The position numbers were made by a program, and so were the translations under genes. From the NCBI GenBank assembly GCA_002005505.1, contig MVGU01000981.1, positions 27,501 to 91,500 on the forward strand: DNA of 64,000 nucleotides. The letters are read 5' to 3'. The notes under the pieces are model-generated. The model was not told the origin of the DNA. It did no database searches and saw only the letters and a program-made list of their open reading frames with translations. This document shows, piece by piece, positions 1 to 23,702 of this stretch; the first letter of the stretch is position 1; each line of letters begins with the position of its first letter. The DNA is from Botryococcus braunii. Lineage: Eukaryota; Chlorophyta; Trebouxiophyceae.

Positions 1-390
1 ACTGCCCACCCCATCACTTGTCGATGCGCTTCCAAACGTTGCATGCCCTCGGCCCACCCCACAGCAAGCGCCCCCAATGGCCCCTCACTTGCAAAAGTGG
101 CCTTGCCCCTCCCGCCCCCCGCTGGCAGATGTACTGTAAAGGCCACAGGCCCCCATCACGGCTTGCTGGCAATACAGGCATCAACCCCCTCCCCCTCCCC
201 CTCCCCCCGCAAGTTGCAACCCCTCTCGCTCTGCCAACACTGTTCAGTCTCCTCCCCCCCCCCCCCCGGGGCTTGCAACTCTTCGTTCCCCCCCGCGCTG
301 CCTTGCCTTTCTCACTCGGCCAACACCGTTCAGTGCATGTTGAAGCCCACTCTGCAAGAAGCCTGATCCCCTGCATGCCATCTGCGGCCC

Positions 391-426
391 CTTCCTTGGG
401 GCAGAAAGCTTTCTGCCCCAAGGAAG
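391..426. repeat. 36-bp perfect palindrome in eEF1B-gamma intron 3
   Basis: The left arm CTTCCTTGGGGCAGAAAG (391-408) is followed directly by its exact reverse complement (409-426) with no loop, centred on AAGCTT. It sits just upstream of the CT array. It could be a cruciform-forming site or the end of a small inverted-repeat element; no function is visible. Confidence 0.9.
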
Positions 427-444
427 CGGCAGAAAGGCGAAAAA

Positions 445-516
<72 letters not shown>

Positions 517-534
517 CTCTCCTCTCTCTCTCTC

Positions 535-588
<54 letters not shown>

Positions 589-629
589 CCTCCTCCCCCC
601 CCCCCCCCACACACACACACACACACACA
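445..629. repeat. (CT)n array with poly-C and (CA)n tail, intron 3 of eEF1B-gamma
   Basis: About 140 bp of interrupted CT repeats (445-585) are followed by a C-run (about 595-608) and (AC)n (608-629). On the coding (minus) strand this is TG-repeat, G-run, then (GA)n, beginning about 14 nt inside intron 3. The rest of 1-642 is C-rich intron without a recognisable exon. Confidence 0.95.
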
Positions 630-642
630 GAGGTGGGCAGAC

Positions 643-2561
<1,919 letters not shown>

Positions 2562-2760
2562 TTTATAAACTCGTGCAAGACAGGAGAAAGCATGCACTTG
2601 TCTGTGCCTTTGATGGAAGTGACGTCCGTCCGTCCCTGGCGGCCAGAGCTGGGTAGATGCCTCTACAGTTAGTACTGCTACAGCATCGGGAAACTCCAGT
2701 CCCGCGGGATTCCCGCGGCGGGAGTCGGTGGGACTCGTAATTCGTCCCACACCCTTGACC
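2562..2760 (-). promoter_or_regulatory. eEF1B-gamma 5' UTR and probable promoter-proximal region
   Basis: This is the sequence immediately upstream of the eEF1B-gamma ATG (2561). A GC-rich dyad, CCCGCGGG at 2701-2708 followed by TCCCGCGGCGGGA at 2711-2723, resembles a plant GC-rich/E2F-like promoter element. Neither the start site nor a 5' UTR intron can be fixed by eye; TTTATAAA directly precedes the ATG and is probably not a TATA box. A retroelement begins a short distance further upstream. Confidence 0.4.
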
Positions 2761-3541
2761 AGGTACCATTACCGCCACATGTTCTATGCCATTCCGTTAC
2801 GTGCCCTCTGCTGCTGCTACACTACTTTGGCTTGCCGCGACCCTCAATGCATTTCACCGCATGTCTTCAACAACTACGCGCTCGTCTCCTCACGCACTAT
2901 TTTCCCTACAGGTCTTCGGTTTCTTCTCAATCCTCCCCGGGCTGTGCCGAGCCAGCTGACTTTACCTCGGCCTCCCTCCCCCCCCGGGGCCAGATCCACT
3001 CACATCTCCCAACATCCAAACCGCCTCCGGGGACACCACTATAGCCCACACAGCACTGTTTGCCGATCTCCTGCTCGCCTCCACCGCCGAAACCTTTACT
3101 GCGCCTTCTGTCAGACGCCTTTACCTTTACGTACCTCACTCCGCGCCTTTTCGGCGACCCTTTCATGCCCGTTTACAGTATCACGTACACAGGCCGGCTA
3201 TTTTCCCCTACAGGGGCTGGCAACTGTTTTTTGGATACAGCTGCCACGTAATTTTGACTTCCCACACTTTCCCTCGCAAGGTAACTCTAATTTCCGACGC
3301 TGTATTACTCAACTGTTGCCTCTGCTTTTTATACACTTCTTCACACCCCCCTTTTTCTTCACGTGTTCTTAGGCTTTTGCTTCGTCGATATATCCCCTAC
3401 GGTTTCCCCTTCCCTATCCATGCTTGCATACTTTTGTTGTATTTGCCCCGGCCAAGTCCCTCTATATTTAGATGTTTGTATTTCTCGTTATGCTGCTCGT
3501 GCTGCTGCTTGGCACCCTCCCCTGTCTGCCGGCTACTGCGG
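2761..3541 (+). other. Pyrimidine-rich leader of the Penelope-like element
   Basis: About 780 bp of C/T-rich sequence ahead of the first plausible ATG of the retroelement. Frames stay open here by composition, but nothing in them looks like a conserved protein. In Penelope-like elements this position is usually a pseudo-LTR or 5' UTR. I looked for the CTGANGA/GAAA core of a hammerhead ribozyme on both strands and did not find one. The exact left end of the element is not identified. Confidence 0.35.
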
Positions 3542-6500
3542 ATGCTGAGCTGCTGGAAGGGGCCTGACGGCAGGATGACACGCACAAGGACTAACCGGCG
3601 CGCTCGACGCATGAGGTGTGCTCAGTCCAAGCCCCACACCCTACTTCAATTGGAGAACTCCGGATTTTTTAAAGCTAGCATGTCCTTATACGGTCAGCTT
3701 TACCGCCAGGCAGCCACATGGCCCGTCATCGATCCCCGCTTAAACGCGGCCGCCCTCCGTTTGGCCCGCTTGATACGGCGATGGAAGTTGCCTCGGGTCC
3801 CCTGGGATCAGCAACATGTTGTTTATGTCATTTTCGTATGTGATACCAGGACCAGCGGTTTAGGCTCGTATTATGTAGGTAAGACTGACCGTGGGGTCAA
3901 GGAGCGTTTTCAGGAGCATGCTCACAAATTGTGGGGCCCCTCCCCAGATCACACCTCCAAGATCTATTCCTACTTCCGCAACTACTCCCCCGCGGACATT
4001 GCTGTTATACCTATTGAATCCTGTGAGGCCCTTCCCCCGCAACCCACCTTGCACAATTTGCAGGACCGCAGTACTTTCCTGGAAAGAAAATGGGTACAAC
4101 TTCTTGAATCACGCAAATGGGGGTTAAATTCTGGCTTACCGGGTTCACATAAACGTAAGTTCCAGGAACTCGCGGGCCTCCCCACTCATATCCAAAATGC
4201 CTCAAATATCTGTTTCGACGCTTTTGATCATATGGATAGGTTGGGGAACAGGATGTTGAATGAGGATTTTGGTGTAGAACACCCGTACCATTCCCGAATT
4301 TATATTACTAAGATTCGCAGATTAGAACGGGCTATCACACATCCCCACTTCGCTGGAGATCCAAAAGATACCCTTTGTCAGCGCCTCAACCGGGGGTTCT
4401 CTGACAAAACGATACACCGTATGTATCATTTGGTCAAAGAGTTCCCTATACACCCATTAACGACTACCAACCAGGGACATCTTTTGGATGCTTTAAACGA
4501 TACAATTGTTGCTCACCGGAATGCTTTGGACAACCGCCAAGACATTCCAGTTTATAAAATGCTTCCAGCTTATGACAACAAACTTTGGGATGCTTTGAAT
4601 CTACACGCCCTCTTCTCCTCTGTAAACCTTAGGGAATTCCTCCCCCCTGATTTGCAACACACCCGTTTATGGCGCCCTTATCTCAGGCACCAGACACTTA
4701 AGACACTAGGTAGAGTGTGTATCAACAATCGGGATATGGCCAACGGCAAATGGGGGGATTTAGCAGCGCTCCGCGAGCTGGCAGCTTCACGTGGGTGCCG
4801 GTGTCCTTGTAATCCTCTCACAAATTGCAAGGAACATATTGCTACTGCTAAGATCGGGGATCTGGCAACTGTCCACCCACTTTTTAATAGTATCATCCCA
4901 CTTCTCAGGTTTGGAACTAAATATCGGCCGGGTATGGGGTCGTCCGAAGCTTCCCTTGCCGATATCAATTATGTCCGTGCCGAGGTTGAGGCTCTTATGG
5001 GATGGTGGGAGGAGTTTCTTGTCAGGAAGCTGTCTCGGGAGAATTTCCTTGCCTTTTTCGATGCTCGGCCTCCGGCGCAAGCTGTCGCAGATTATATGAT
5101 GGTCCTACGGGATCGTATTAGGTTATCTTTGGAAGCTCTACATGTGGGGTTCCCTCTTTACCATCACCAAACTGAGATTTTGGATGACGCCGCTTTAAGG
5201 GCTATTCGTCTCTTGCAAAACCATTTTGTATTCACACAGGTAGATAAGGCAGCATCATCCTTTGCTGTCATATGCAAAATAAAGGTTGCACAAGACATGA
5301 TCACGGATTTGGAGCATAGCAGTACATATACTTTTGTGCCTCAATCCGTAGAACAGACTTCCCTTATTTTAGACCATGCCTTGGCCCAACGCTTTGCCCT
5401 TCGTCCTTCATATGGTGCCCGCGCCTCTGTTATCCCCCCCTATTTTCCCATATGGAAGGCCCACTCGGACAAGTTCAGATTTATTGTGGGGGCCAACAAA
5501 AGCCCCCTTAAACCTCTTTATCTACAATTAACTAGTATTTTTAAGGCTCTCCTTCCGCCTATTCGTCGTATGTGGACTGATAGCTTTAAGGATATAAAGG
5601 CAAACCACCCGGTACCAGGTTTCCCCGTCTTAGAGAATGCGCACGGTTATGTACGGACTCTTTCGTATTTAATCGCATCCCCCACGACGAAACTCTGCAT
5701 GAACTTAGGCATTTCTTCCGGGAGACCGAGGCCCCAGAACTGCACTCATTTGATTTCGACCGGTTATACACAGGAATTCCTTTGGACGACTTGTTCCGAA
5801 GGATTTCTGATCTTTTGGATGATTTATGGACATACCAGAGAGCCAAGAAGAATATACATGATAATGCTTCTCTCATTTTACAATTGTCTCTGGACACATG
5901 TACATGGAAACACGTAAACATGGTTGGGATGCACATGACTACCCCACCCGGTGGGGAGGGTTTGTTTGGGAAACTTTCGGGGACGGGGACGACAAAACTT
6001 TTGTTTAATTTACAAGCTTTAAAAGCCCTTTTTAAGTTCAGTATCGATAACACTTTCTTGGTTTTTGGGGGTGCCGTTTTTAGACAAACCATTGGTATCC
6101 CAATGGGAGCCAATCACTGTGTTTACGTCGCAAACTTGTACCTTTTACAATATGAGAGGCTTTTCTTCTCATCCCTTGTTTCCGCTATTCGGGGTGACAA
6201 CCCACAGCGGTCTCTACTTGCCACACACTTATTGTATACATACCGTTTTTTGGGCCGGTTTATTGACGATGAAGCATGCCTTACGCACAATCCGTCGTTG
6301 TTTCTACGCTTTCTTACTCAAAGCCATGAGGAACAAGGTATAAACGGCATCTACCCCCCCCCCCATCTAGGTTTCAAGGTTACCTCATCGGCCTCCAAGA
6401 TGACATGCAATTTTTAAATCTGCATATTTGTATTGTTCCACACGCTTTGGGCCATCGGGTCATTACCGGTATTTACCGGAAAGATGCCAACTTTTTCCAG

Positions 6501-6800
6501 GGGAAGGTACACCTTATAAAAATGCCCCTCTTCCATTCTAACATCCCAGATCGTTACAAGTTCAATGTTCTCCATAGCCAAGTTATGGAGTACACTAGGC
6601 TTTGTAATATGCCCGAGACGGCGGCCAAAGCCATAGCTGAACTTATGCAGTTTTTCACGAATCATGCTTACCCTATGCGCCCGATGTGGCGTAGACTTTA
6701 TCGCAGCCTCCAGAAGGTCCCTACATTGTATGGCCATTCGGCTCGAGCTTTATATACCTTGACTTGTCGGTATTATACCCCTCCTGGGGTCCGCCATTGA
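3542..6800 (+). pseudogene. Penelope-like retroelement polyprotein: N-terminal GIY-YIG nuclease + reverse transcriptase, two frameshifts
   Basis: Catalyses target nicking and reverse transcription of a Penelope-like element. The order is permuted: the GIY-YIG nuclease (about 3813-4150) comes first, with VVYVIFVCD, SYYVGKT and the catalytic-Glu segment LERKWVQLLE followed by WGLN. A cysteine cluster CRCPCNPLTNCKEH (4794-4838) follows, then the reverse transcriptase: FRFIVGANKSPLKPLY, motif A FDFDRLYTGIP, IPMGANH, and the catalytic LGRFIDDEA (about 6249-6281), ending with MQFLNLHI and a thumb-like tail. The reading frame changes once between about 5600 and 5670 and again at an 11-C run (6354-6364), so three frames are needed. 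Start could be ATG 3542 or 3575; upstream residues are low-complexity. This matches permuted elements described from green algae rather than canonical Penelope, which carries the nuclease C-terminally. Probably inactive unless the C-run shift is a sequencing error. Confidence 0.88.
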
Positions 6801-7723
6801 CTCATCCGGGTTTTTAGGGGTCACTTGTAACAAATAACCCTCAAAACAGGGGGATCTCCCTTGTTTTTCGGGCGTGTGATTGGAAGGCACAACCGCCCCT
6901 CTCTCTTCTTCCCAACTTTTTTACACAGATCATATTATATGCATCGTATGGTTTTTACCCCTTCCCTCCAGTCCCAGGGTTAGGGTTCTTTCCATCCGCG
7001 TTATTTTCTGATCCGGATGGGTTTCCTCTTACTCCTGTTACGCGTGGAGCCGCCCGTCTTCCTTCTTCACCCTTTCTCCCTGAGACGCTGGGTCATATGA
7101 CTCTACACTCTTTCCATCGGCCAGCACACTAACATTCTATTTCGACATTCCGCTTTCACATTAACAGTCAAGATGTGAAATGAAACACATAAGAAGTGAA
7201 GCCACTCTGCATCTCGCCGTTCAGCATCCTTTCCACACCTCGCTTTTGCCGCACGTGCATGCACCTTAAAGGGATTTGACGGGATTACACTGTTTTCTAA
7301 CCCCACGGTATGAAATCTTACTATGTATCTTCTCAGAACTAATTCACGCTAGGGATCTTTTCATTTTAACGACCTTTTCCGCTTGCCTCCCGGTTCCTCT
7401 TGACCTAATACTCATTACGACGTTTTTTACGACCTTTAGGTGCCACCCTTCAAACTTTACGTGCTGCTGTCACCGCTTCCAATCTATCCTTCAACCGTTT
7501 TTCCGTCGGCCTTTTTCTGGTCAGCACAAACTGTACAGGTACCTTAAAGCTTTGAGCGCAGCCCCACACGTCCACTCGTTTTCTCTAGGCTGTTGCTTCT
7601 TACTAAGGACTTTTCTGCCTACAGGTTTTTTGAAAGATACAGGAACCCCTTGCTGGCTCAAATCCCAAAATCCCTGCCCCCTATCAACGCTATCGCCCCG
7701 GCCAGGCACGCTTGCTCGGCTCC
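6801..7723. other. Penelope-like element 3' tail or intergenic; no gene seen
   Basis: T/C-rich sequence after the polyprotein stop, with no conserved frame. A single GGGTTAGGGTT at about 6977-6987 resembles a telomere unit but is not repeated. The 3' end of the Penelope-like element must lie in here, but no terminal repeat or target duplication was found. Confidence 0.4.
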
Positions 7724-7728
7724 ACGAC

Positions 7729-7989
7729 TGTAGACTATAGCTTAGCGGAAGAGGTTTAGAAGGAGACAGTGAGACGTTCGTGGTGTGCAACAAAAGAGTG
7801 TTACATGATTGATTCGCAAGCGTACTCTTAAACCCAGGGTGGATTGAATTATATCGTACTGCCACAGACGCGTGATCGGGCAACCGAGCGAAGTACCTGA
7901 GCGAGGTTGTACTGCGAACTAGATCACAAGGCAAGTCATGCACTATGCCAAGGACCCTACTAGAGCATTATACCCTAGGAAATGCTACA
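7729..7989 (-). repeat. 3' LTR of element A (261 bp)
   Basis: TGTAGACTATAG at the left end and GGAAATGCTACA at the right end; in element orientation it starts TGTAGCATTT and ends AGTCTACA. Same length as the copy at 19685-19945 and nearly identical; one difference is visible, AACTAGATC here versus AACCAGATC. Confidence 0.95.
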
Positions 7990-8747
7990 TGCCCTCCCCC
8001 TTGGCATAAGCTATGAGATGATGTTTATGGCAAATGGGGCCACAAACGTAAGACAGGGGTATCACGAACCCTGCTTACTGTAACTATAGACAATCACACC
8101 TCCTATAGTTACTACATAACGCAAGTCAGAGGATGAAATCCACAAGCAAGTTTAGCACGACACAGACGAGGGACTCATCTGCTCAATGCTCGAATACCTT
8201 AACATTCTAAGGACTATCGTCTGCAAGGCGGATCCTCTAACTTAGGGGACGAACTCCCTAGACAGCACTCACACCAGTGATGAAACAATAAGGTTGAGTC
8301 ATTAGCCTAGCACTTGTCCAAACCTTAGGTCCAGTTACCCTGCTACGCAGTGCAACCTTCGCTTGAGGTGGCTTTCCAACAACGGGCATAAGGCATATTG
8401 TCTAGAGCAGCAAGCTAGACACACTAACTGCCACATGTTGTATCTCATGGGTAAGATACCAAAGCAAGTTATTCAAGCACGGAACTACAATTTGCAGCTA
8501 CACTGCAACAGCAAGTGCATCACAAAGTGGAGCCGTGGGTCAAGGAAACATAACCCATGCAAAACATATAACCAAGAGACATGCATGCAAATCCCCAATC
8601 ACGAATCCCCCTCCCAGACCCTTCCACCCTCCCTCCCTCCCAAACCCAAGCTGGCTGGCATTGAAGCTCCAAGGGTCATCAGCCGCAAGTGGCTGGAAAA
8701 GGCTCAAGCCGCAAATGGCTTAATCAAGGGATGCCCGCAAGTGGGAC
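7990..8747 (-). other. 3' untranslated region and polypurine tract of element A
   Basis: Lies between the pol stop (8748-8750) and the 3' LTR. In element orientation AAGGGGGAGGGCA directly precedes the LTR and fits the polypurine tract that primes plus-strand DNA. No conserved frame in the rest. Confidence 0.7.
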
Positions 8748-9152
8748 TTAGGAGAAGACAGGGGCAGCTGCCACGTCATCAGCCAGATGGCGAACATGGG
8801 CAAGAGGCTCCCAAGTATTCTCAGTCTCATCGTAGCCTTTCCATTTGACTAAGTAGCGCCAAGACTTTCCAACTCTCTTCTTAGCTATGATGGCCTCCAC
8901 TTCGTACACGCCGCCACGCCTGTCTGCATACAAAGGAGGTGGTGAAGTAACGGTCACTGGTACAGATGAAGATACATATGGCTTCAACTGGGAAACATGA
9001 AATACAGGATGAATGTTAACAGTCTCAGGCAACACAAGCCTAAAAGCTCGAGAACCAACTGCTGCAGCAATCACAAAGGGCCCCAAAATACTTAGCTGAT
9101 AACTTGGACGAGAGCCCAGGTTCAAGCTAGTTCTTCCTCGCAGCCAGCAAGA
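8748..9152 (-). pseudogene. Element A pol, C-terminal part with chromodomain
   Basis: Carries the integrase C-terminal segment and chromodomain (FHVSQLKPY, then GGVYEVEAIIAKK, YLVKWKGYDETENTWEP) ending at the stop 8748-8750. The chromodomain is thought to direct integration to modified chromatin. It was separated from the rest of pol (15345-18549) by insertion of B1. An in-frame TAG follows AARKN at about 9130, so this part is also broken upstream of the open stretch. Confidence 0.85.
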
Positions 9153-9157
9153 CCTGG

Positions 9158-9605
9158 TTTAACGAAGTGAGACGTGTAACTAAGATTTATAACAAGCTAA
9201 GCAAGGGTTTCAGGCAAGGGTGACACCGAAGGTAGGAATCGAAGTTCCAATCCGTTACAAGTTCGCAGCCCTCCTCACGCAGGTCGTCCGAGTCTCCAAA
9301 GAACAATATAATGAACAATGTAGAGAATGCTAGATGTCTCACTCGTAGCAGCAAACCCAAAGACAATGATCGCCACCCGAGTTCCTAGTCCACCTATGCG
9401 CGGATCCGGCTACGTCGTCCCTCTACGAGATGCTCTCGCGAGCATAGCGATATGGATGACGAGAGGAGACCCACTAGGATATTACAGTCATTTTCCTACA
9501 CACAAGGACAACGAGATCTACTCGTATCCCAAAGGGCACGAAGAAACATGAACTACGCGCACATCCTACGTGAGACGCGTCGCGCTGACGCGGCACCTCA
9601 CTACA
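9158..9605 (-). repeat. 3' LTR of B1 (448 bp)
   Basis: In element orientation begins TGTAGTGAGG and ends CACTTCGTTAAA, so it has TG but not the usual CA terminus. Preceded (element orientation) by the polypurine tract AATAAGGGGGGAGTA at about 9606-9620. Confidence 0.93.
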
Positions 9606-10286
9606 TACTCCCCCCTTATTCCTGTGCGTCCCCGCGCAGAAGGCAGAGCGCAACAACAAACAGACAAGGCAAACAAAGGAACAGAAAGACCTTCCAACAT
9701 GCGGAGACTCAGACTTAGACCTACGGGCAACCCGCCTCCCGTGTTGCCAGACCCCAGCCGAATGCTGCGTATCGGGGTCCCCACCATAATGCAATAAGAA
9801 CAAGGATCAGGCACGACTAACAGAACAAAAGACAAAACACTGAAAGAAAAACGAAAGTCCACATGATGAACAGCCAAAATGAGACACAAGGGCAGAGGTA
9901 AAAGTCCAGATGTCCAAAAGTCCAGAGTCCAAGGGGAGTCCAATTTCCACATATAGTCCAGTATTACGCCAGTATTGCACCATATTGATCAGGTGTGGTA
10001 GTGAAGTGAAAAGGCCATACACCTAATGTGCACAAAAATCTATCCAGGTAAGGGACCCATGGTCAACCCTACCGGGTAAGGCAGCCTTACCCTAGCCTAT
10101 CCAAAGTCCATATGGCCATACAGAGAGACCCCTCCAAGGAGGGCCAACCGGTCGACGGGACCCTAAGGGTGGACCCTAGGAGTCGTGCCCTTGGGAGGCA
10201 ATGGCGGGAGCCCGTGACTCTCTCTGTATTCTTCCACTTTCTTGTGGCAACAACGCGTGACCTGTGCAAGTTATTTCCAGCTATCC
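9606..10286 (-). other. 3' UTR of B1
   Basis: Non-coding segment between the truncated pol and the 3' LTR, closely matching 41825-42379 of B2. Contains the end of the old pol frame and the polypurine tract; no independent gene. Confidence 0.7.
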
Positions 10287-13200
10287 TCATTTGGCTCGTT
10301 CGGATCGTCCAGAGTGCGGCCGCGTTCGCCAGTGAGTGGCTTGTGATCCACAATGCCACCACACCCGGGATCCACGATACATCCACACCCATGTCCTTAA
10401 CAATTGTGCTAGAGTATAAGCATCAGCATTCATTGTTGTAGCAGCAAAATGAGCACACTTGCTAAGCCTATCCACAACAACCCAAATCGCATCATGTCCA
10501 CTTGGGGTCTTTGGGAGGTTAGTAATAAAGTCCATAGACACACTTTGCCACTTCCTTGCTGGTATTTGTAAGGGGTGAAGAAGACCAGCAGGCAAAGTAT
10601 TCCGAGCCTTGACTCGTTGACAAGAGTCACAATGAGCAACATAGGCTTTGACATCCTCATACATTCCCGGCCAATACCATTCCCTTGTTACAAGCTCGTA
10701 CATGCGAGTTACTCCAGGGTGACCAACATGAGGTGGATCATGTAAAGCTTCCAAAGTTTCACGTCGTAGGTTCTCCACGACAAGTTCCCCATCTTTCCTT
10801 TCCTCAAACAATGCAGGAACATATTTCCGTCCATTCCTCTCCCAAAAGCCTCCCTTTTGACTAACCTTCCTTCTATTCGCACGCGCTGCCAACCACGGAT
10901 CGTATGTGTAAGCCTTCTCAAGTTTGCCAAGTAGGGATTCGTACCCATCGGTCTCGCGGGTAAGCTCACTCGGGCTGGCCAACCCGATTTGCTCCATCGT
11001 GCCGAGGGAGCTTGGGGTCTCGTGAGCGGGCCCCGGGAGCGTGACCTTGGGGACCTTGCGGACCCGAGCTGTGAGGGTACCCTCGACATCCCGGCTGGAG
11101 GGGGTGAGGGAGTCCGGACTGGTGCGCCGACGCTTGCGCCGGAGGGCAGCCCCGGCCACAGCAGCCCCATTGTCCCTCCCCCCAGGTCCAGGGTGTTGAG
11201 TGAAGTGACACCTGGAGAGCGGATCCGCAATGTTGGTCTTGCCCGGTTCCCATACCCATTCAATCTCAAACTCCTGCAGGCGCTCGGCCCACCGAGCCCT
11301 CCGAGGACTAAGCCCCACCTGTTGACCCAAGAAGGTGTTGCACTTGTGATCCGTCACCACCGTTACTGGCTTACCTAACAAATAACATCTCCATTCCGTG
11401 AGAGCATACACTACAGCCAATAACTCCCGTTCCGTGGCACTGTAGTTCCTCTCGCTTGCTCCCAACTTTTTACTGAAATACGCACAAACCTTCCCATCTT
11501 GAAATAGCACAGCTCCCACGCCGTAATCGCATGCATCGCACACTACCTTAAATGGCCGACGTACGTCCGGGAGTGTTAAGATAGGGGCACTTACCAAAGC
11601 TTCCTTTATGTTGTCAAATGCTTCCTGTTGTTCCTGTCCCCACTTCCAAGGTGCTTTTGCCCCAGAGAGAGCTGTCAATGGGGTTGCCAGGATACTGTAG
11701 TTCTGAATAAACTTTCGAAAGTAATTAGACAACCCAAGAAACCTCCTAACTTCCGTTACGTTTGTGGGCGTAGGCCACTCCTGCACCACCTTGACTTTAT
11801 CCATATCCACTTCCAACCCATTTTCCCCAATGATGTGTCCCAAGTATTTCAATTGTTTCTCAAAGAAAGAGCATTTGACAAGTTTTGCCAGGAGTTGATG
11901 TTCGCGTAGACGGGTGAAAACTCTGTCCAACTGCAGAAGGTGTTCCTCTTCCGTTTTGCTATAAATGAGCACATCATCCTAGTATACAACCACAAAGCCT
12001 TCCCTTATAAAGTCGTGAAAAACCTCATTCATAAGCCGTTGAAATGTCGCGGGCGCGTTGGTCAAACCAAAGGGAAGTACAAGAAATTCGTACAAGCCAA
12101 AAGGGGTCCTGAAGGCAGTTTTAGGCACATCCTCCTTGCGAAGTCGCACTTGATGGTACCCAGACAACAAGTCCAAGCTCGAAAACACCTTGGCTCCCTT
12201 AAGCCTATCCAACAGATCGTCAATTCTGGGGAGAGGGTACCTATCCGAGATGGTAATTTTATTCAGGGGACGGTAGTCTATTACCATACGCAAACTTCCA
12301 TCCTTCTTTCTAACAAACAAAACAGGTGATGCAAATGGTGAGCAACTTGGCCTGATCAATCCCAATTTTAACAACTCATCAACCGTTTTTTCGCATTCCG
12401 CAAGCTCACTTGGAGCAAGACGGTACGCGGGCCTATTGGGGGGCCGATGTCCTTCTTCCAAATTTATTGTGTGAAACACTTCCCGCTCCGGGGGTAACCC
12501 CGGGAGTTGTTTTGCAAACAAGTCCTCATTTGCAAGTAACAAGTTTTTCAGGGCCTGTGGCTTGCCTTCCAACATGTCATTTATTTGATGAGTGAAAGTC
12601 ATACCGGCACTACTGGGGGGTTTTGTGACGACGGGGGTGTCGTCCATAGATTTGTCGGTGTCCGCCAAGTCGGCCTCACTTGAGGCGTCCTCCCCGGTGA
12701 TGTCCACCAGTTCAGCCTGCTCATTCACAAGCACAGTATACAAACAAACCTTCCAAACATCTTGACCCTTCCATCCTTTTCCATTCCTATCCTTCCTTCC
12801 TTCCTTCCTCTCTTGTGCTTGTAAACCCCAAATAAGTTTTGGCCCCACTGGCAACGATGAATTTGCGTGTTTTAGGGTGACCCACTTCCCATTATGTCTA
12901 AATTGAGCAGCCTTTACACAAAAATCAATTGAGACTCCTCTTTCTTCCATCCAGTCCTGCCCCAAAATCATGTCTACCCCATCAATCATGGCAGGGCTTA
13001 CAATGAAGTTGTGACGGGAAGTTATACCAGGCTTGAGTGTAAACGACACATCTACCGTTCCTTTCGTATCGGACACACTTCCATCAGCAAGAGTCACGGA
13101 TATGCATGCGGGTTTGTATCGCACCCCTAGCCCTTGCAAAGTATCACTTTTAATAAACGAATGAGATGCCCCACTATCAAACAACACTGAAAGGATTTTC

Positions 13201-13592
13201 CCCTTAACATTCGCCGGAAAGGTCATAGCTAGCGGAGAGTCAGTAGTAACACTTCCCATGGTGAGTGTGGGTCTTGGGGGAACCACACAACATACAAAAG
13301 AGAATGGGTATACACTAGTTTGACCATTCATGTCCACCGCCTGTCCCTTCCTTCCTGAACACACTTCTACAATCCTTCCTCGCATACGGTGAGCATAGAG
13401 ACTCTTACTTTTCCAAGTTTTCCTTCCCACAATGAAACAACAAGTGAGGGACGGGTTGCACCTTTGTTCCCATAAAAACTTGGAAATCTCAGATTCAGCC
13501 TTCCTGACATTTGGCACCACAAGGTTCACCCCTTCCTTTCCCAAATTGGAGGCCACAAGAGAGTGCAAAACATGCAAGCAAGTGGCATCCAT
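10287..13592 (-). pseudogene. B1 pol: protease-RT-RNase H-partial integrase; stop codon inside the RT catalytic motif
   Basis: Starts at ATG 13592 ([12 protein letters not shown]). Protease motif [12 protein letters not shown] fingers/palm with [18 protein letters not shown], RNase H CDACDYGVGAVL and integrase zinc finger/CDSCQRVKA with the first catalytic Asp (SMDFITNLP) are all readable. The RT box that should read VVYLDDVL has TAG in place of the Leu codon (11981-11979); the frame continues correctly after it. Near 10370 the integrase breaks off after WMYRG. About 110 nt follow that resemble a diverged chromodomain start (DHKPLTGERGRTLDDP, in another frame), with the chromodomain core missing. 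Compared with B2, roughly 730 bp spanning the rest of the integrase is gone. Non-functional. Confidence 0.92.
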
Positions 13593-13603
13593 GGCTTCAG
13601 AAT

Positions 13604-14812
13604 TTACTTTTGAGGATTATGCCCCGGCCCTTTTCCCTTCCAATGTGCTCCCCGGCCACCACGGCCCTTCCACTGCCCACCTCGAGCTTGATTAGAGGGG
13701 ACAGGAGGAGGTGGGGGCAATTGACTGTCGCGCCTGCTCTTCCTTTGCAAGTAGTCCCGCTTGGCCTGACATTGCCATTGCTCGTGACCAAAGTTTTTGC
13801 AGAAATAACACTGGCGCTCGGAGGGGACGCTTGTCCGAGAATCTAACTTCCCACCAACGTTGTGTCCGACGGCTCCAAGCACAGGCCCCTGGGTGAATCC
13901 CGGAAAGTATGCCGGCGTGCTTGTTGGAGTTCTCTTCACAACGTTGAGAACCTTCCTTCCTTCCTGTCCCCTCAGCATCCCCCCTGATTTTAAGTTGCTT
14001 TCATATTGCACCACATAAGTGCACAATGAGTCGAGGCTTGTGAACCTGACACCAGTTTGAGGGTTAACTGTGCAAGCAACTCTAATAGGAGCATTCAGGC
14101 CTTTGAGGAACATATATATTTTATCATTTTCGCAGATGTCATATTCGGTTTCTACATCACTCAACAAGGAAATAAACCTTTCTATGTATCTTTCAACGCT
14201 TTCTTGCCCTTGATAAACATGGTCTAATTTTTGCCGGGCAGCCATAACCAAATCTGTAGAGTCGTATCGATTTCCCATAAAATTTTTAAAGTCTTCCCAT
14301 GTTGGCTCTGTTTGACCTCCTTCCCTTTCCTTCCTTTTGAGGTATGTCCCCCAAACCTTTGTAGGTCGCTCCTCCATACATTGCAGCGCGACTGCCACCC
14401 ACTTGTCCCTTGACACATTTGAAATGTTCACATATGATTCCACCTTACTAGCAAAGAATTGGAAGCTTCCTCTTTTTCCTGTAAACATGGCTGGTGTAGG
14501 CACACGCACGACGTTAGTGGTGGATGACGTCCGCTTGGATGCTCGTTCTCCCTCCAAGGCCTCAATCCGCTTCAATAACCGTAGAATTAGGGATTTAGTC
14601 TTATTTTTCTTCAAGGGTGTCTTCAAAGGAGTGGGTTTGGGTTTCGTTTTGGGTGTGGTCGGTTTGGGCGATGGGGCCAGATGCAATTCCGTTTCGGACT
14701 CTTCCAAAAGATCATCGACTTCAATACCTTCCTTTTCCAAACCTTCCAAAATTTCTTTCTCTTTAAGGGGGAGACCGGAGTACTTGTTTCCTTTCCGTTT
14801 AACCGCCATCAT
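13604..14812 (-). CDS. B1 gag (capsid/nucleocapsid)
   Basis: Open frame of 402 codons from ATG 14812 ([10 protein letters not shown]). It has a basic/proline-rich N terminus ([11 protein letters not shown]), a capsid-type retrotransposon gag core ([13 protein letters not shown] to YERYIERF-like [10 protein letters not shown]), one CCHC knuckle [14 protein letters not shown] and a Gly/Arg-rich tail. Nearly identical to B2 gag. It forms the virus-like particle and binds genomic RNA. The stop is followed after 11 nt by the pol ATG in the -1 frame. Gag stays open while pol in the same copy is dead. Confidence 0.92.
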
Positions 14813-14878
14813 GTTGCAATGGAACAATGCAATTACAACCTTCCCTACGTCTCCCTTCGGTTCGAGGCTCTAACCGCC

Positions 14879-14890
14879 TCGCCGATACCA
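14879..14890 (-). promoter_or_regulatory. Primer-binding site of B1
   Basis: TGGTATCGGCGA in element orientation, 1 nt after the 5' LTR end. Identical to the sites in A, B2, C1 and C2. Confidence 0.85.
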
Positions 14891-14891
14891 A

Positions 14892-15339
14892 TTTAACGAA
14901 GTGAGACGTGTAACTAAGATTTATAACAAGCTAAGCAAGGGTTTCAGGCAAGGGTGACACCGAAGGTAGGAATCGAAGTTCCAATCCGTTACAAGTTCGC
15001 AGCCCTCCTCACGCAGGTCGTCCGAGTCTCCAAAGAACAATATAATGAACAATGTAGAGAATGCTAGATGTCTCACTCGTAGCAGCAAACCCAAAGACAA
15101 TGATCGCCACCCGAGTTCCTAGTCCACCTATGCGCGGATCCGGCTACGTCGTCCCTCTACGAGATGCTCTCGCGAGCATAGCGATATGGATGACGAGAGG
15201 AGACCCACTAGGATATTACAGTCATTTTCCTACACACAAGGACAACGAGATCTACTCGTATCCCAAAGGGCACGAAGAAACATGAACTACGCGCACATCC
15301 TACGTGAGACGCGTCGCGCTGACGCGGCACCTCACTACA
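14892..15339 (-). repeat. 5' LTR of B1 (448 bp)
   Basis: Same sequence by eye as 9158-9605, so the insertion is very young. Drives minus-strand transcription of B1. Right flank is the second CCTGG. Confidence 0.93.
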
Positions 15340-15344
15340 CCTGG

Positions 15345-18300
15345 TCCCCCACCTTAAAAGGATGGTCCCGTCTCTTCTTATCCGCGTAAGTCTTCTGCCG
15401 TTGCTGTGCAGAGGCAAGGTTAGATTTGGCACTCTTTAAGGCAGTCTAATATATTCATAAAGGCCTGCCAAAAATGGCTAGTGAACCTAGGATCTCTATC
15501 ACTCACAATTGAGGTAGGCATTCCAAATCTCACAAAGACCCTGTCAATAAATAGTTGTGCAAGCTGGGGTGCAGTGATAGTTTTATTGCATGCAGCCAAT
15601 ACACACAACTTTGAAAACCTATCAACAAATACCACAATAGAATCAAACCCACAACAGACAGGTAAATCAGTCACTAAGTCCAGGGAAACGCTCTGCCAAG
15701 GTCCATCCGGAATAGGTAGTGGCTGGAGCAGTCCATAAGGTACAGTTCCCGTCCCTTTAGTGCGCTGGCAGGTGTCACAAGACCTGCAAAAGTCCCTGAC
15801 TGACGAGTTGAGCCGTGGCCACCAAAAGTTCCTGCAAACTAAGTCATGCATCTTGTTAATCCCAAGATGTCCAGAAAAGGGGGTGGAATGACACTCTCTC
15901 AATACCTTCTCTCTCATTGCATCAGGGACAAATACTCGACCTGACTGCACAGAATAAGGTATAGTGTCTCTCATCACCAAAACACCTTCTTCCACCAGTT
16001 TAGTAACTGTGGGGTCATTAGTACACAGCAAAGCAATTTCTGGTAGGAGGGACGAGACAGAAACAGAGGAGACATGCATTACTGCTAAATCAACACGCCT
16101 GGATAAAGCATCTGCAACAACGTTGTCAGTCCCTTTAACATATTTGATGTCAGGCATGAACCTCATGATCTCAGTAAGCCAACGTTCTTGTCTACTAGTC
16201 CTAACAGGAGCAGTAAGTAAATACTTAAGTGCTTGCTGGTCAGTGTGCACAGTAAACTTAGCCCCTAGCAACAAATGCTTCCACTTCAGTAATGCATGTA
16301 CCAGGCAAGCAATTCTCTATCATAGGGTGCTAACTTCCTTTCAGGGGGTTGGAATTTCCTGGATTCGAAGGCCACGGGCTGCAGTCCCTTCCCTTGATCC
16401 TGCTGTAGTACAGCTCCAACAGCAAATCCTGAGGCGTCTACATGTACAACAAAAGGTTTGTCTAAATCAGGCATCAACAGGCAAGGAGGAGTAGAAACAA
16501 GATCTTTCAGTGCAACAAAGGCTTCCCTCTGGGGTCCCTCCCAGGTCCAAGGCATATCCTTCTTAAGCAACTCAGTCATAGGATAAGCAACATCTGCAAA
16601 ATGGTCAATAAAAGTGTCATAATATTGTGTCAACCCAAGGAACCCTCTCAATTGTGACACATTACAAGGAGTGGGCCAATCCTGAATGGCAGCAACCTTC
16701 CTAGGATCCACCTTGATCCCATCCGGTGTCAACAGGTGCCCAAGGTATTCCACCTGCTTGGCAGCAAATTCACACTTAGACCTTTTACAATAAAATTTAT
16801 GTTCCCGTAACACTGACAAGACAGTTCTTAGATGCTCCATATGTTCTGCAACAGATTTAAAATAAATGAGGATATCGTCTAGGTACACTAGCACAAATCT
16901 GTCAAGAAAGGGAGCCAAGACAGAGTTCATTACAGCCTGAAAGGTGGCAGGAGCATTAGTCAACCCAAAAGGCATCACAGTAAATTCATAATGACCATAA
17001 CGAGTTTTAAATGCAGTCGTTTCTATACTGTCTTCATGCATACGTATCTGATGATACCCAGAAGCCAGATCAAGTTTAGAAAAGATACAACTGCCATGAA
17101 GTTGTTCAAACATCTCATCAATTCTAGGCAATGGGTGCTGGTTCCTAACAGTAATCCTATTCAAGGCTCTATAGTCAATGCACAAACGCCAGCCACCATC
17201 TTTCTTTGGGACAAATAAGATAGGTGCACCAAAAGGGGATGTTGATGGGCGGATGAAGCCTCGCTCTAGGAGCTCTTGTAACTGCGCACGAAGTTCAGCC
17301 AGCTGAGCTCCGGACAGTGGGTAAATACGAGAGACTGGAGGAGTTGCCTCCGGCTCCAATCTGATATGGTGGTCTCCAGCACGAGTAGGGGGTAGGCCTT
17401 CAGGAAGTCCAGATAAAACATCTTGAAACTCCTGCAAAAGCTCCTCCAACTCTGGCACATTATATGCATCGGTATCTGGACTGTCAGTCACTGCATTTAA
17501 TTGAACAACATAGATTGATTCACCCAACTTCACCATCTCTTCTACTTCCATAGAAGAAATCACATATTCTGGCATGCCTGACCTCTGACACCCCAAAAGT
17601 ACATGTGTTTGATCAGCATGAACCAAGGACACAGCATTCAATTTCCAATTTACAACTGGGTTAAAAGCAGTAAGCCAAGGTTTGCCCAAGACAAGATCAT
17701 AATAAGTCAACTCAGTAGGGAGGCAGGTGACTCTAAAACCCAATGTCCCAACAGTCAGGTCAGTTGACACACTATGTCCTACCATAGATGTTCTGCCATC
17801 AGCTACTCTCACAGTAACATGTGAACTCATAGATTCAGTGGGAAGGGCAAGCTCATGCACAAGTTTATCATCAATAAAATTTGCAGAAGCTCCACTGTCT
17901 AACAAAATCCTGACAGTCCTACCAGCAAGAGTTCCCTCAAACTCAATACAAGTACCAGAAAGATCAAGACCATCCACAATGTGTCTACTGTCAAGCTGAA
18001 CAAAAGAGTCAAAACAGGTTGCAGGCAGTGGCTTCTTCTTCTCACCGAGACAGCCAGACTGTACCAAACAACTAACAAGGGCAAGCCTGTATGGGAATTG
18101 CAATGGGGTGTGCACATAGTGGTGGAAGATAAACCCAATGCAGCCAAAACAGAAGCCGAGAGTAGTACATCATGAGACTGTTGTTGTGTAGTCCCTTCCA
18201 GCACCTGTTCACAGTGGCTCAGGCAAGAGAGCACAGTCAATCTAGTACCTTGCAGTAGCTGTGACACAAGCTGGCTGACAGAATCCTCTCTATCACTACT

Positions 18301-18549
18301 ATCAACAAACAAAACAACATGAGCATCACTATCAATAAGGTGAGGAGCTGCATCTCTCTTAAACATGCTCTCAGGACTGATCAGGTCACTGGCAGAGGGG
18401 GATGTCTGAAACTCTCTACACAAACCATGCCCACCTACAATATGGGTCATGAAATTATGGTAACAACTGTGGAAATAATTCTGCAGATGACCAAGCTCAT
18501 ACAAAACAGGAATACCATACTGGGGCTCTGAACAGTTGGCTGGCATCAT
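15345..18549 (-). pseudogene. Element A pol: protease-RT-RNase H-integrase, frameshifted and integrase-deleted
   Basis: Begins near ATG 18549, 44 nt beyond the gag stop. A frame change near 18060 leads into protease (LLDSGASANFID), RT ([40 protein letters not shown]) and RNase H (VDASGFAVGAVL, YDRELLA). A further shift near 16290 leads to the RNase H tail, the integrase zinc finger (CRSCDTCQRTKGTG) and the first two catalytic Asp (SLDLVTDLP, SDRDPRFTSHFW). The frame then jumps from ASHFWQAFMNIL-type sequence straight into KSAKSNLASAQQRQKTYADKK, so the catalytic Glu region (QTDGQTER-type) is deleted near 15440. Only C-terminal residues and the insertion point of B1 follow. Non-functional. Confidence 0.88.
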
Positions 18550-18592
18550 AAACAGGACTCACACTGCTGTTTTACCAAAGAAGACCAACAAA

Positions 18593-19619
18593 TCAAGTAG
18601 TACTTGACTTGCGCTTGGGTTGTCTGAGCTCTGGATGCAATTTCCAGCAACGCTCTGCTGCGTGTCCTGACTTGCCACAATGTGCGCAGGGCTGCGCAGA
18701 AGTTTTTGTCGGGCCTGGTGACTTGGAGTCAGGGGAGAACTTTGGAGCAGGGTTCACAGGCTTAGACGGTCCTGGGAGGTCTGATATTGTCACAGCATGC
18801 TTGAAGTAGTCTTCCAAGGTCTGGGGATACTGTAGGGAGATGCTTTTCTGAAGATCAGCCCTGCAGCCAGCCAAAAATAAGTGACACAAAGTCTCTTCTG
18901 CAAATGCCTTTGGAACCTTTGACCTCAATGCATTAAATGTTGCAATATAGCTTCGCATGTCAGTCTTTCCCTGTGAGAGACTCAGCAACTGCTCTAAATG
19001 CCTCTTATGCAGCTCTACAGGCCTAAAAGCAGCAGTAAGTGCAGTCACAAACGATTCCCACGTCCCATAAGCAGCAAGACTCCCTGAAGCAATTAACTTA
19101 AACTGCCCAGTCCACCAATCCAACGCTAGAACGTCGTAGCCACCTCCACCGAGCGGATGCCAAGCCTACATCGTAGGTCCCCAAACACATTTCAGTCTGC
19201 ATAAGCCATGGATCCAACTTCATTGGATCTCCCTCGAATACAGATGGGTATGGCAACTTGAGCGAGGGCTTCCCTGAACCTGACGAGGCTGTAGCCGATG
19301 CCGGAATCGCCGTTGGTATGGGCTGCGGCACGACCACAGATGCAGGTTGCGCGAGAGAGCACTGAATTAACATCTCAAGTCCCTTTGAAATGCTCTGAGC
19401 GGTATCAACTGGAGGGGAATGCGACGGAACACTAGATCCTAATGCAACGGCTCCTTCGAGCAGGGCACCGATATCTACCACACGCCTAAGCATACAACGA
19501 AGATCTACCCATGAACGATCTACATATACATAAGCAAGAAGATCTATGGATGGATCTGGCTCTGCGATGCCAGGACTCGGTGCACGGACCCTCGAACTCG
19601 AACAAGGATGCCGAGACAT
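18593..19619 (-). pseudogene. Element A gag, frameshifted
   Basis: N-terminal half reads from ATG 19619 (MSRHPCSSSRV) to the capsid start PYPSVFEGDPMKLDPWL. A shift near 19110-19150 leads to the second frame (LDWWTGQFKLIASG to RSYIATFNALRSKV), ending in one CCHC knuckle CAHCGKSGHAAERC and stop 18593. Capsid-nucleocapsid layout of a chromovirus gag, but not related closely to gag of B or C. Confidence 0.82.
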
Positions 19620-19671
19620 CACAATCACGAAAGAAACGCACCACGAACGAACGACAAGGAAGTAATCCTTG

Positions 19672-19683
19672 TCGCCGATACCA
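19672..19683 (-). promoter_or_regulatory. Primer-binding site of element A
   Basis: TGGTATCGGCGA in element orientation, 1 nt after the 5' LTR end (CTACA|G|TGGTATC). Confidence 0.85.
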
Positions 19684-19684
19684 C

Positions 19685-19945
19685 TGTAGACTATAGCTTA
19701 GCGGAAGAGGTTTAGAAGGAGACAGTGAGACGTTCGTGGTGTGCAACAAAAGAGTGTTACATGATTGATTCGCAAGCGTACTCTTAAACCCAGGGTGGAT
19801 TGAATTATATCGTACTGCCACAGACGCGTGATCGGGCAACCGAGCGAAGTACCTGAGCGAGGTTGTACTGCGAACCAGATCACAAGGCAAGTCATGCACT
19901 ATGCCAAGGACCCTACTAGAGCATTATACCCTAGGAAATGCTACA
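19685..19945 (-). repeat. 5' LTR of element A (261 bp)
   Basis: Pair of 7729-7989. Followed on the right by target duplication ACGAC (19946-19950), then unrelated T-rich DNA. Confidence 0.94.
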
Positions 19946-19950
19946 ACGAC

Positions 19951-20368
19951 CAACTGGGGGAAGGGATGGGGTTACAGGTATTCTCATCCTCACTTTCCTT
20001 ACAAACGTCTAGATATATGGCCCTGGCCGGGGCAGTATTCTTTTTGTCCATCCTGTCGCCTCTGGAAGACTCGTTTTGTGGCTGTTCTTGACCCTTTTGC
20101 CCATTTTCGTCCCATCTCCCCCTCTGATGTCCTACCTCTACTTCTTTTTGGTTGTGGTTTTTACCCCTGTGTTCTCTTTTGGAGTTTTCCTTTCCTTTGT
20201 CCCCCCCCCTTTTCTTCCTTTCATGGGGTCTCTGTTATGTGTTGCCTTTCCCATTTCTGTTGTTGCCCCACGTGGGGATTTCTTCTTCTGCTCTTCCATT
20301 TCTTGCTGTTCTCCTGTGCAAACCCACCCATTACATCTAGGACAGACAGAGTAAGAGTTTTCAGCTGG
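19951..20368. other. T/C-rich unique sequence, no gene seen
   Basis: Continues the DNA interrupted by element A (pre-insertion site CTCCACGAC|CAACTGGG). Frames are open by composition only. It could be the far end of the Penelope-like tail or a host intron; nothing recognisable. Confidence 0.4.
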
Positions 20369-20737
<369 letters not shown>

Positions 20738-21133
20738 GCGGCGGGAGGGAGGGAGAGAGACAGGGGGCTGGGGCCCGACAACCGACACGCGTAACGACAA
20801 ATGTAAACCCTGACTGGTGGGTAGCAGGCAGTAGAAGTGATGGATGGTGGTGGGAACCAATCTGGGCCCTAACAACACTAATCTGAACTTGTGTGTCAAG
20901 TGGCAGAAGTAAATTTAAAATCCCCTGAGAACTTTGGCAACTGCTGTTTTGGTTTGGAATACAGAACGCGAGGCAGTATTAATGCATACTGAATTTATAT
21001 GCTGGCGTGCTGAAATGGCATTCAGGTTCATCAAATAATCCTCTCAACTGGTGTAAAACGTTTACAGCTTACAATCCCTGGGGCCAGCAGTCAACTCCTG
21101 ATTTAGGGAAGAAAGAGGGGAGATGCAAAGAGT

Positions 21134-21287
<154 letters not shown>

Positions 21288-21432
21288 GTGCGAGGCCGAG
21301 ACACAAACGGAACGACTGCATTCACTCGACAGTCGTAGAGCATACCGAGCATTGAAAACTTTTCTCAGGCTGTACTTCAGTGTGTATATATGCCAGAGTG
21401 TGTATATTACCATTACTCTTACTATCACTATT

Positions 21433-21443
21433 TCTACTACTAG

Positions 21444-21526
<83 letters not shown>

Positions 21527-21533
21527 CTACTAC
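21433..21533. repeat. (CTA)n trinucleotide array
   Basis: About 30 CTA units, decaying into mixed CTA/CTC/TTA before the long ATT region. Confidence 0.95.
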
Positions 21534-21652
21534 TGCTCCTCCTAATCCTACTACTATTAATATTACTATTACTACTACTAATCCTGTTATTACTCTTACT
21601 ATTATCATCATATATAATAACAACAATAAGAATAGTAATAATCATAATAATA

Positions 21653-22590
<938 letters not shown>

Positions 22591-23702
22591 TATTCTTACT
22601 TTTTGCTACAACTTTATATTCCTGCACCTACTTTCGTACTTCTTGTTTTTATTATTCTGCATCTTTTGCACTTACGGCCATTCCGATGTCGAAACGTGAC
22701 TATTCGGGCATCGGGGGCCTGAGACTGATATATTTCACTTTTCCTTTAATTCGCGGGCATCGGGGGCCTGAGACTGAAAATTTGTTTCCCTTTAATTACC
22801 CCGATGCCCGTGCGTGGGCTTTAAATATAGGGGCCTTCCCAGGGGGAGAGGCGGAACCTGCCCCCGAATTCGGCAAAAGGCAGGCGCATTGGGGGCAGTG
22901 CATTCATTACACCCATGACAAGAAGTCTTGTCACAGCGTTACTCACGCAAGTCTGGCCTGCAAAACCCCAGTTTGCGCTTACAGCCCACAAGCTTCAATA
23001 TCAAGGTCCTAGATGAGCAAGGCAAAACGTGGGTGGAAGCTAGGCCGACGAGATACAGCCCCTACACATGACCAACGCTTGGTTTCACACACACCACTTG
23101 CACCAACAAGTGGAAGTTCACCATATTTCTCAATTTTGGGCCCCGCAACTCGGCGTAGGGCCCAACATCACCCCTTGAGGGTGCGTCCCCTCCCCTCTGC
23201 CCGTCCGCATTCACACGGGCCAGGCTTTCAGCCCAGCCAAAACATTCAGAAATACCCCAAACCAATCACGGATTGCTTGAAAATATTGCAGCAAAATGTT
23301 ACCAAGGTGTCGGGCTCACGGCTTCCTTTCGGACCTTGGGCATGCAAAATTCCGTCCCTTCCCCGATGCTCTCCAAACTTCGCACCCTTTCTCCTTGCCA
23401 CCACGGCCACCCACTGGTATGCCTCTGCAAAATGAAAGCCCTGGGAACGCCCTCTAAAGCTCTTGCAAACAGAGCCCTTACCTCCCCGGGCTTCAAACGG
23501 CAAGTCCCACCTGCAACTTCAGGGCGGTACTGTACCATCTTTGTCGCGCAGGGCCCACTAGATTTTCTTTGTACTACGGCAACTTGCAGTACGCCTCACA
23601 CGCGTACTGCCCATGGCCCTCAAAACCCCTGATTAAATGTCCTGAAAAGCGGATTTCTGCAGCCCAGATTTGCGCCTGACAAGATTTATTGTCATGGGTG
23701 AT
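22591..23702. other. Non-coding stretch with a thrice-repeated 12-mer
   Basis: CGGGCATCGGGG occurs at about 22705 and 22754 in direct orientation (each followed by GGCCTGAGACTGA) and in inverse at 22799-22810. The rest of the stretch shows open frames without recognisable protein content. Confidence 0.5.

Follow-up and report, generated by a model that had tools for sequence, protein, structure and literature searches.

Among Penelope-like elements (PLEs), the Chlamys group reportedly occurs in algae and combines an N-terminal GIY-YIG nuclease, a CxC linker, and a C-terminal reverse transcriptase (RT), with no canonical hammerhead and with a nuclease that is said to be devoid of the CCHH motif known from other PLE nucleases. 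Nuclease-first PLEs are further said to contain an insertion-in-fingers domain between RT motifs A and B, and to form pseudo-LTRs and tandem or inverted insertions. The permuted-domain PLE group is already in print (Craig et al. 2021, doi 10.1093/molbev/msab225), in a paper whose title, as it appears in the excerpts of PMC12477816, PMC11167929, and PMC9033089 that cite it, names the green lineage and protists; an excerpt of PMC12477816 also reports the Chlamys group in Ectocarpus.

The element described here lies in a 64,000-nucleotide stretch of Botryococcus braunii DNA (contig MVGU01000981.1, positions 27,501–91,500, forward strand), which is referred to as the window at its full length, and its relatives were sought in the 176-Mb assembly of 989 contigs to which the window belongs, designated below by C-numbers. 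On the plus strand of the window, a GIY-YIG-type nuclease (3818–4144), a CxC linker (4796–4837), and an RT (5237–6797) follow one another in this order. It is very likely that the element is a decayed, 5′-truncated copy of a nuclease-first PLE, with the Chlamys group as its most likely affiliation.

Reading frame, linker, and RT motifs

The plus strand of the element contains an ORF at 2960–5917, followed by the overlapping ORFs 5590–6417 and 6330–6800. Two frameshifts relative to the sibling copies, each located in a short homopolymer run (at about 5.67 and 6.41 kb), break the ORF as assembled, and may represent either mutations or assembly errors. A programmed frameshift at the C-run near 6.36 kb was considered and rejected, as the run length in the window keeps the frame of the C390 copy and simply varies among copies. 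The telomerase-like PLE RT (5237–6797, plus strand), identified from its motifs, its matches to genome and protein sequences, and a tree, is spread across three frames. Its blocks are QVDKAASSFAVICK (5237), FDFDRLYTGIP (5749), GIPMGANH (6094), FIDDEAC (6259), and YKFNVLHSQVMEYTRLC (6555), and it ends at 6797, where the ORF stops after the RT thumb with no nuclease behind the RT.

The linker, CRCPCNPLTNCKEH (4796–4837, plus strand), carries a CxC motif (CRC...KEH), in which C403, C405, H416, and T419 are invariant across the nine aligned rows. A cysteine cluster between the nuclease and the RT had been pointed out in the first-pass annotation; it is present at this position, and the Cys and His residues invariant in the nine rows identify it as a linker motif common to the relatives. 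Judging from the sequence, binding of zinc by the linker cysteines is plausible.

Boundaries, 3′ UTR, and inserted LTR elements

The interval of 2761–7723 originally assigned to the element had to be revised at both ends: the 5′ junction is at 2743, and position 7723 is not the end, since a Ty3/gypsy element splits the PLE at 7728/19946. The 5′ segment of the PLE, comprising the leader, the ORF, and the first part of the 3′ UTR, thus extends over 2743–7728 on the plus strand, with matches to copies starting at 2743 (C153) and reaching 7728 (C308 and C765). The copies in C153, C164, and C416 share further upstream sequence that is absent from the window, showing that the window copy is truncated or broken at 2743. 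Only 182 bp separate this junction from the ATG (2561) of a divergent gene; the adjoining divergent gene noted at first pass, where it was read as eEF1B-gamma, is indeed there, and its first exon (2223–2561, minus strand) matches Pfam GST_N.

The Ty3/gypsy element (7729–19945, minus strand) is located inside the PLE 3′ UTR and has LTRs of 261 bp (7729–7989 and 19685–19945) that are 99.6% identical. It is flanked by a 5-bp target site duplication, ACGAC (7724–7728 on the left and 19946–19950 on the right, plus strand). C308 and C765, both preserving the PLE site without the insertion, carry this sequence there only once. A second LTR element (9158–15339, minus strand) is nested in the Ty3/gypsy element, with 448-bp repeats (9158–9605 and 14892–15339) that are 100% identical and with CCTGG at both flanks. 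The Ty3/gypsy insertion is a later event than the PLE copy, and the Ty3/gypsy element is the younger of the two.

The first part of the 3′ UTR (6801–7728, plus strand) is common to C308 and C765 up to 7728, and the 3′ UTR resumes behind the insertion at 19946–21440 (plus strand), where it contains (GA)n arrays. The shared sequence ends in an (ACT)n/(ATT)n tract (21441–22590, plus strand; the end position is approximate), delineated by the ends of five copies. All five copy ends fetched enter the (ACT)n tract, and four of them continue into an (ATT)n-type tract, with C429 leaving for other sequence. A probe placed past the tract (22585–23100) matched only a high-copy repeat, from about 22830–22910 onward. 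No pseudo-LTR was seen, the region 19946–24000 being without a long match to 1501–7728 and the repeats in 1300–9200 consisting only of short pairs.

Genome searches yielded 17 matches for 19941–20360, 55 for 20790–21105, and 21 for 21290–21440, including nine for the last piece at an identity of at least 97%. Seven of these nine copies (the exceptions being C82 and C429) also hold 19941–20360 on the same strand and with varied 5′ ends, which is what one 5′-truncated 3′ UTR would leave. These joint copies argue against the alternative that the PLE 3′ UTR does not continue beyond 19950 and that the sequence found there, which contains the (GA)n, (ACT)n, and (ATT)n arrays, is an adjoining repeat copied along with it. 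We regard this alternative as rather unlikely, even though the 20790–21105 piece, found 55 times with 11 full-length matches and many in small clusters, and the copies in C390 and C416, whose similarity to the piece from 19963 is limited to a short stretch at 79%, would be compatible with it. Provided that the sequence after 19950 belongs to the PLE 3′ UTR, as we prefer, the 20790–21105 module might have been amplified alone as short clustered copies, in the manner of a SINE-like non-autonomous passenger; this idea is unlikely. If it were true, the passenger would use the PLE machinery via the shared microsatellite-rich 3′ end.

The N-terminal nuclease

The nuclease core (3818–4144, plus strand) is encoded in the frame of ORF 2960–5917, and is composed of the motifs VVYVIF (3818–3835), YYVGKT (3869–3886), GVKERFQEH (3893), FLERKWVQLLES (4076–4111), and GLNSGLPG (4121). 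No GIY-YIG match was obtained in a Pfam search of the element pieces (E up to 1), the element parts remained unrecognized with nothing useful returned in a search of the window pieces against Pfam and NCBIfam, and no relevant match turned up among the sequences of solved structures. We compared two profiles with hhalign. The window-type nuclease profile was built from six regions of the same genome (window, C9, C425, C161, C21, and C402), whose rows are not all independent: over the stretch used, C21 is equal to C161, and C402 nearly equal to C425. The other profile was built from three proteins (P0010, P0012, and P0014) that we take to be Naiad-like, after the description of Naiad. The window-type profile matched the N-terminal GIY-YIG of the Naiad-like proteins with 90.1% probability (E 1.6e-6; 104 columns), in an alignment pairing both Tyr motifs, the Arg, His, and Glu residues, and the GLN motif, whereas 50 column-shuffled control profiles reached at most 2.0% probability. 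Against four other GIY-YIG ORFs of the genome (L001–L004), the nuclease profile gave 43.3% (E 2.4e-4; 23 columns). A GIY-YIG domain, as predicted from the profile match and the motifs, is counted as present.

All the motifs listed in the first-pass annotation were found, in the order given there. They are not due to chance, because relatives in the genome and among public proteins match the same stretches, and because the nuclease profile clearly exceeds the shuffled controls. An AlphaFold model of 3590–5638 had a mean pLDDT of 51.1, with values of 24–41 in the nuclease blocks, and is too poor for judging the nuclease fold. At three positions P0010, P0012, and P0014 all carry Cys, and none of the six window-type rows has this complete set; a lone Cys is located near those positions in the rows for C21, C161, and the window. 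Separately, four Pfam GIY-YIG matches found across the genome were evaluated as PLE parts and discarded, as they belong to separate small ORFs with no PLE RT within ~1.5 kb.

RT and its relatives

Searches of public proteins returned 16 different proteins. P0001 shares 90% identity with the C390 copy along its whole length. In P0010 and P0012 (857 aa), the nuclease is located at residues 37–125 and 33–120, respectively, and the RT is recognized by an RVT_1 match at 518–743 in P0010 and is visible in the alignment in P0012. The Pfam GIY-YIG matches of these two proteins are above the cut-off, and that of P0014 is below it (E 0.0028). According to the Pfam annotation, GIY-YIG is placed behind the RT in none of the 16 proteins; an alignment-based search contributed two of the 16 as new proteins and returned no canonical PLE.

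In an RT tree of 23 rows, which has an arbitrary root, gave long-branch and composition warnings, and includes neither a canonical PLE nor a named Chlamys sequence, 12 window-type rows are split from the 11 others by a branch with support of 99/98, and all Naiad-like rows fall on the side opposite to the window RT. Near-copies and fragments (L028, L035, L037, L041, and L042), the chimera P0004, and the window nuclease piece were omitted from the tree. Among the sequences found, the window RT groups in this tree with other nuclease-first elements. RT motifs A and B are separated by 101–112 residues in the window type versus 63–76 in the eight Naiad-like rows measured; regarding the insertion-in-fingers domain, the comparison is confined to this motif A–B spacing.

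The RT branch, the length of the A–B stretch, and the window nuclease without the Cys set at the three positions together make it very improbable that the element is of the Naiad type, which is also nuclease-first. A Naiad-type element would have the same domain order and CxC linker, and outside the window-type clade no nuclease-first relative is closer than the Naiad-like proteins. The initial proposal of a permuted PLE of the Chlamys/Naiad type is supported by the succession of nuclease, CxC linker, and RT, with Chlamys fitting better than Naiad.

In viral contigs, none of 22 pattern matches proved to be a relative. Prokaryote contigs yielded six loci with a PLE-like RT, of which L064–L066 also match the Naiad-like nuclease profile, either in the ORF of the RT or in one overlapping it; neither scan returned a canonical PLE. 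In L064, the nuclease occupies residues 107–213 of 967, ahead of the RT. These and the other prokaryote-contig loci were taken for eukaryote contamination and kept out of the tree.

Domain order and copies in the genome

The RT piece has at least 36 matches in the genome, and the nuclease–linker piece at least 45. In all 12 contigs where both pieces were found, the nuclease precedes the RT on the same strand. This count uses one nuclease row each from 16 of the 17 contigs touching the nuclease (C16, weak and short, was omitted) and 23 of the 36 RT rows, omitting overlapping rows, C164:87441, contigs without a nuclease row, and C9:412948. The gap between nuclease and RT is <3 kb in eight of the 12 contigs and 7–19 kb in C164, C9, C416, and C21, for which we infer that the two parts belong to one element. 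The claim of a PLE with GIY-YIG ahead of the RT is thus borne out by the motif order, the nuclease profile match, and the 12 nuclease-first contigs, and no copy with a C-terminal nuclease was encountered in the genome search.

In the best pieces, protein identity to the window is 94–98% for C308, C153, C164, C556, and C765, 54% for C9, and ~40% for C587; single pieces in C402, C425, C161, C443, and C152 are 24–38% identical. At the DNA level, five copies are 97–99% and three are 92–95% identical to the window, suggesting that the window PLE family has been fairly recently active. C402 is open across 987 residues, from the nuclease through the RT thumb. In C390, whose match starts at 4736, behind the nuclease, a single open frame (687 aa) covers the linker and the RT to its end. 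No fully open copy of the window family was seen in the stretches fetched. Inverted partial copies occur in C720 and C263.

That a canonical Penelope/Poseidon element had its nuclease moved forward by rearrangement or chimeric insertion is extremely improbable: the RT comparison made here, which includes no canonical PLE, would leave room for such an origin, but both closely and distantly related families of the genome share the nuclease-first order, which is contained in the open C402 copy and is also found in unrelated metagenome proteins.

Proposed mechanism

For a nuclease-first PLE, as we interpret the element, an active member would encode a single protein with an N-terminal GIY-YIG nuclease and a C-terminal RT. 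The nuclease would nick chromosomal DNA, and the freed DNA end would prime the RT, by which the element RNA would be copied into the site. Copying would often halt early, so that the 5′ end would be missing. The Ty3/gypsy insertion into the 3′ UTR of the window copy followed later. Nicking and target-primed copying by the window element are presumed by analogy with known PLEs. The anatomy of the element, its many copies, and the way in which these differ at the 5′ end but have a common 3′ part are seen directly in the genome; such a pattern of ends is expected from target-primed reverse transcription. PLEs are described as often 5′-truncated in a passage of PMC9033089.

Comparison with known PLE groups

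The canonical Penelope/Poseidon type, represented by PAc of Anolis (PMC11167929), resembles the window element in having GIY-YIG and a telomerase-like RT in one ORF. It differs in that a C-terminal nuclease and a hammerhead are described for PAc, whereas the window element has an N-terminal nuclease and a hammerhead was not found. Specifically, none was present among 26 Rfam matches in window positions 1–12000 (E up to 5), 13 loci gave no match at the gathering score, and a core-pattern scan of 19946–22600 gave no match; two loose minus-strand matches to the core pattern, in L027 and L031, are taken as chance.

Naiad, for which the Naiad-like proteins serve as stand-ins, is similar to the window element in the nuclease in front, the CxC linker, and the related RT, and the Naiad-like proteins are dissimilar in the Cys residues at three nuclease positions, the shorter motif A–B stretch, and an RT beyond the supported branch.

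With Chlamys, the element shares the N-terminal GIY-YIG, the CxC linker, the C-terminal RT, the nuclease without the Cys set, the lack of a detected hammerhead, and the occurrence in algae. In the features testable here, namely domain order, linker, a nuclease devoid of the Cys set, and the lack of an Rfam hammerhead, the element agrees with Chlamys, and no difference in kind was seen from the group description given above. The several microsatellite arrays in the 3′ UTR may be a peculiarity of the window family. Pfam-based annotation can overlook the PLE nuclease, as it did here, and the DNA anatomy is now available for one such PLE family. With some reservation, the element appears to be ordinary for its group, a further representative of the already described Chlamys PLEs, which alters no view of PLEs and adds another genome carrying several nuclease-first PLE families.

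Insertions in the window element and in other PLE copies

The Penelope-like element (PLE) of the window is interrupted in its 3′ UTR by a Ty3/gypsy element (7729–19945), which in turn carries a nested LTR element (9158–15339). Because the LTR identity is 99.6% for the former and 100% for the latter, both elements were inserted recently; Ty3-type ORFs are dense across the window. A different PLE copy, at locus L025 (contig C308), holds in its nuclease region a solo LTR (positions 1649–1903) that is of the Ty3 type found in the window element and apparently has a 5-bp duplication. At a further locus (L029, contig C691), two PLE pieces that overlap by ~8 bp flank a segment (1252–6009) containing two long ORFs of 429 and 1156 amino acids, and this two-ORF segment, as judged by eye, is probably a LINE.

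Repeats within and next to the PLE copies

A genome search with part of the PLE 3′ UTR (window 20790–21105) gave 55 matches; 11 cover its full length, and many others are short pieces grouped in small clusters, with ~70–84% identity. A very high-copy repeat begins at window 22909–23100 and extends beyond (721 first-look candidates, 40 of which were scored), and its copies in contig C212 are spaced by ~2.36 kb, as would be found in a tandem array. Directly upstream of the PLE copy in contig C153 is another dispersed repeat (L028, 1500–2300), for which a 920-base query gave 44 matches.

Related domains in other ORFs and proteins

Four mutually similar, dispersed ORFs of 159–274 amino acids (L001, C308:177397; L002, C253:210958; L003, C312:147797; and L004, C174:93072) each contain a Pfam GIY-YIG domain above the cut-off, and no PLE RT was found within ~1.5 kb of them. 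They probably belong to a different repeated gene with a GIY-YIG domain, or to a different mobile element. Among the relatives returned by protein searches, a metagenome protein of 1099 amino acids (P0004) combines a Retrotrans_gag domain (PF03732) and a PLE RT in one ORF; it is either an insertion-made fusion or an assembly chimera, and its RT is almost identical to that of another such relative, P0002.
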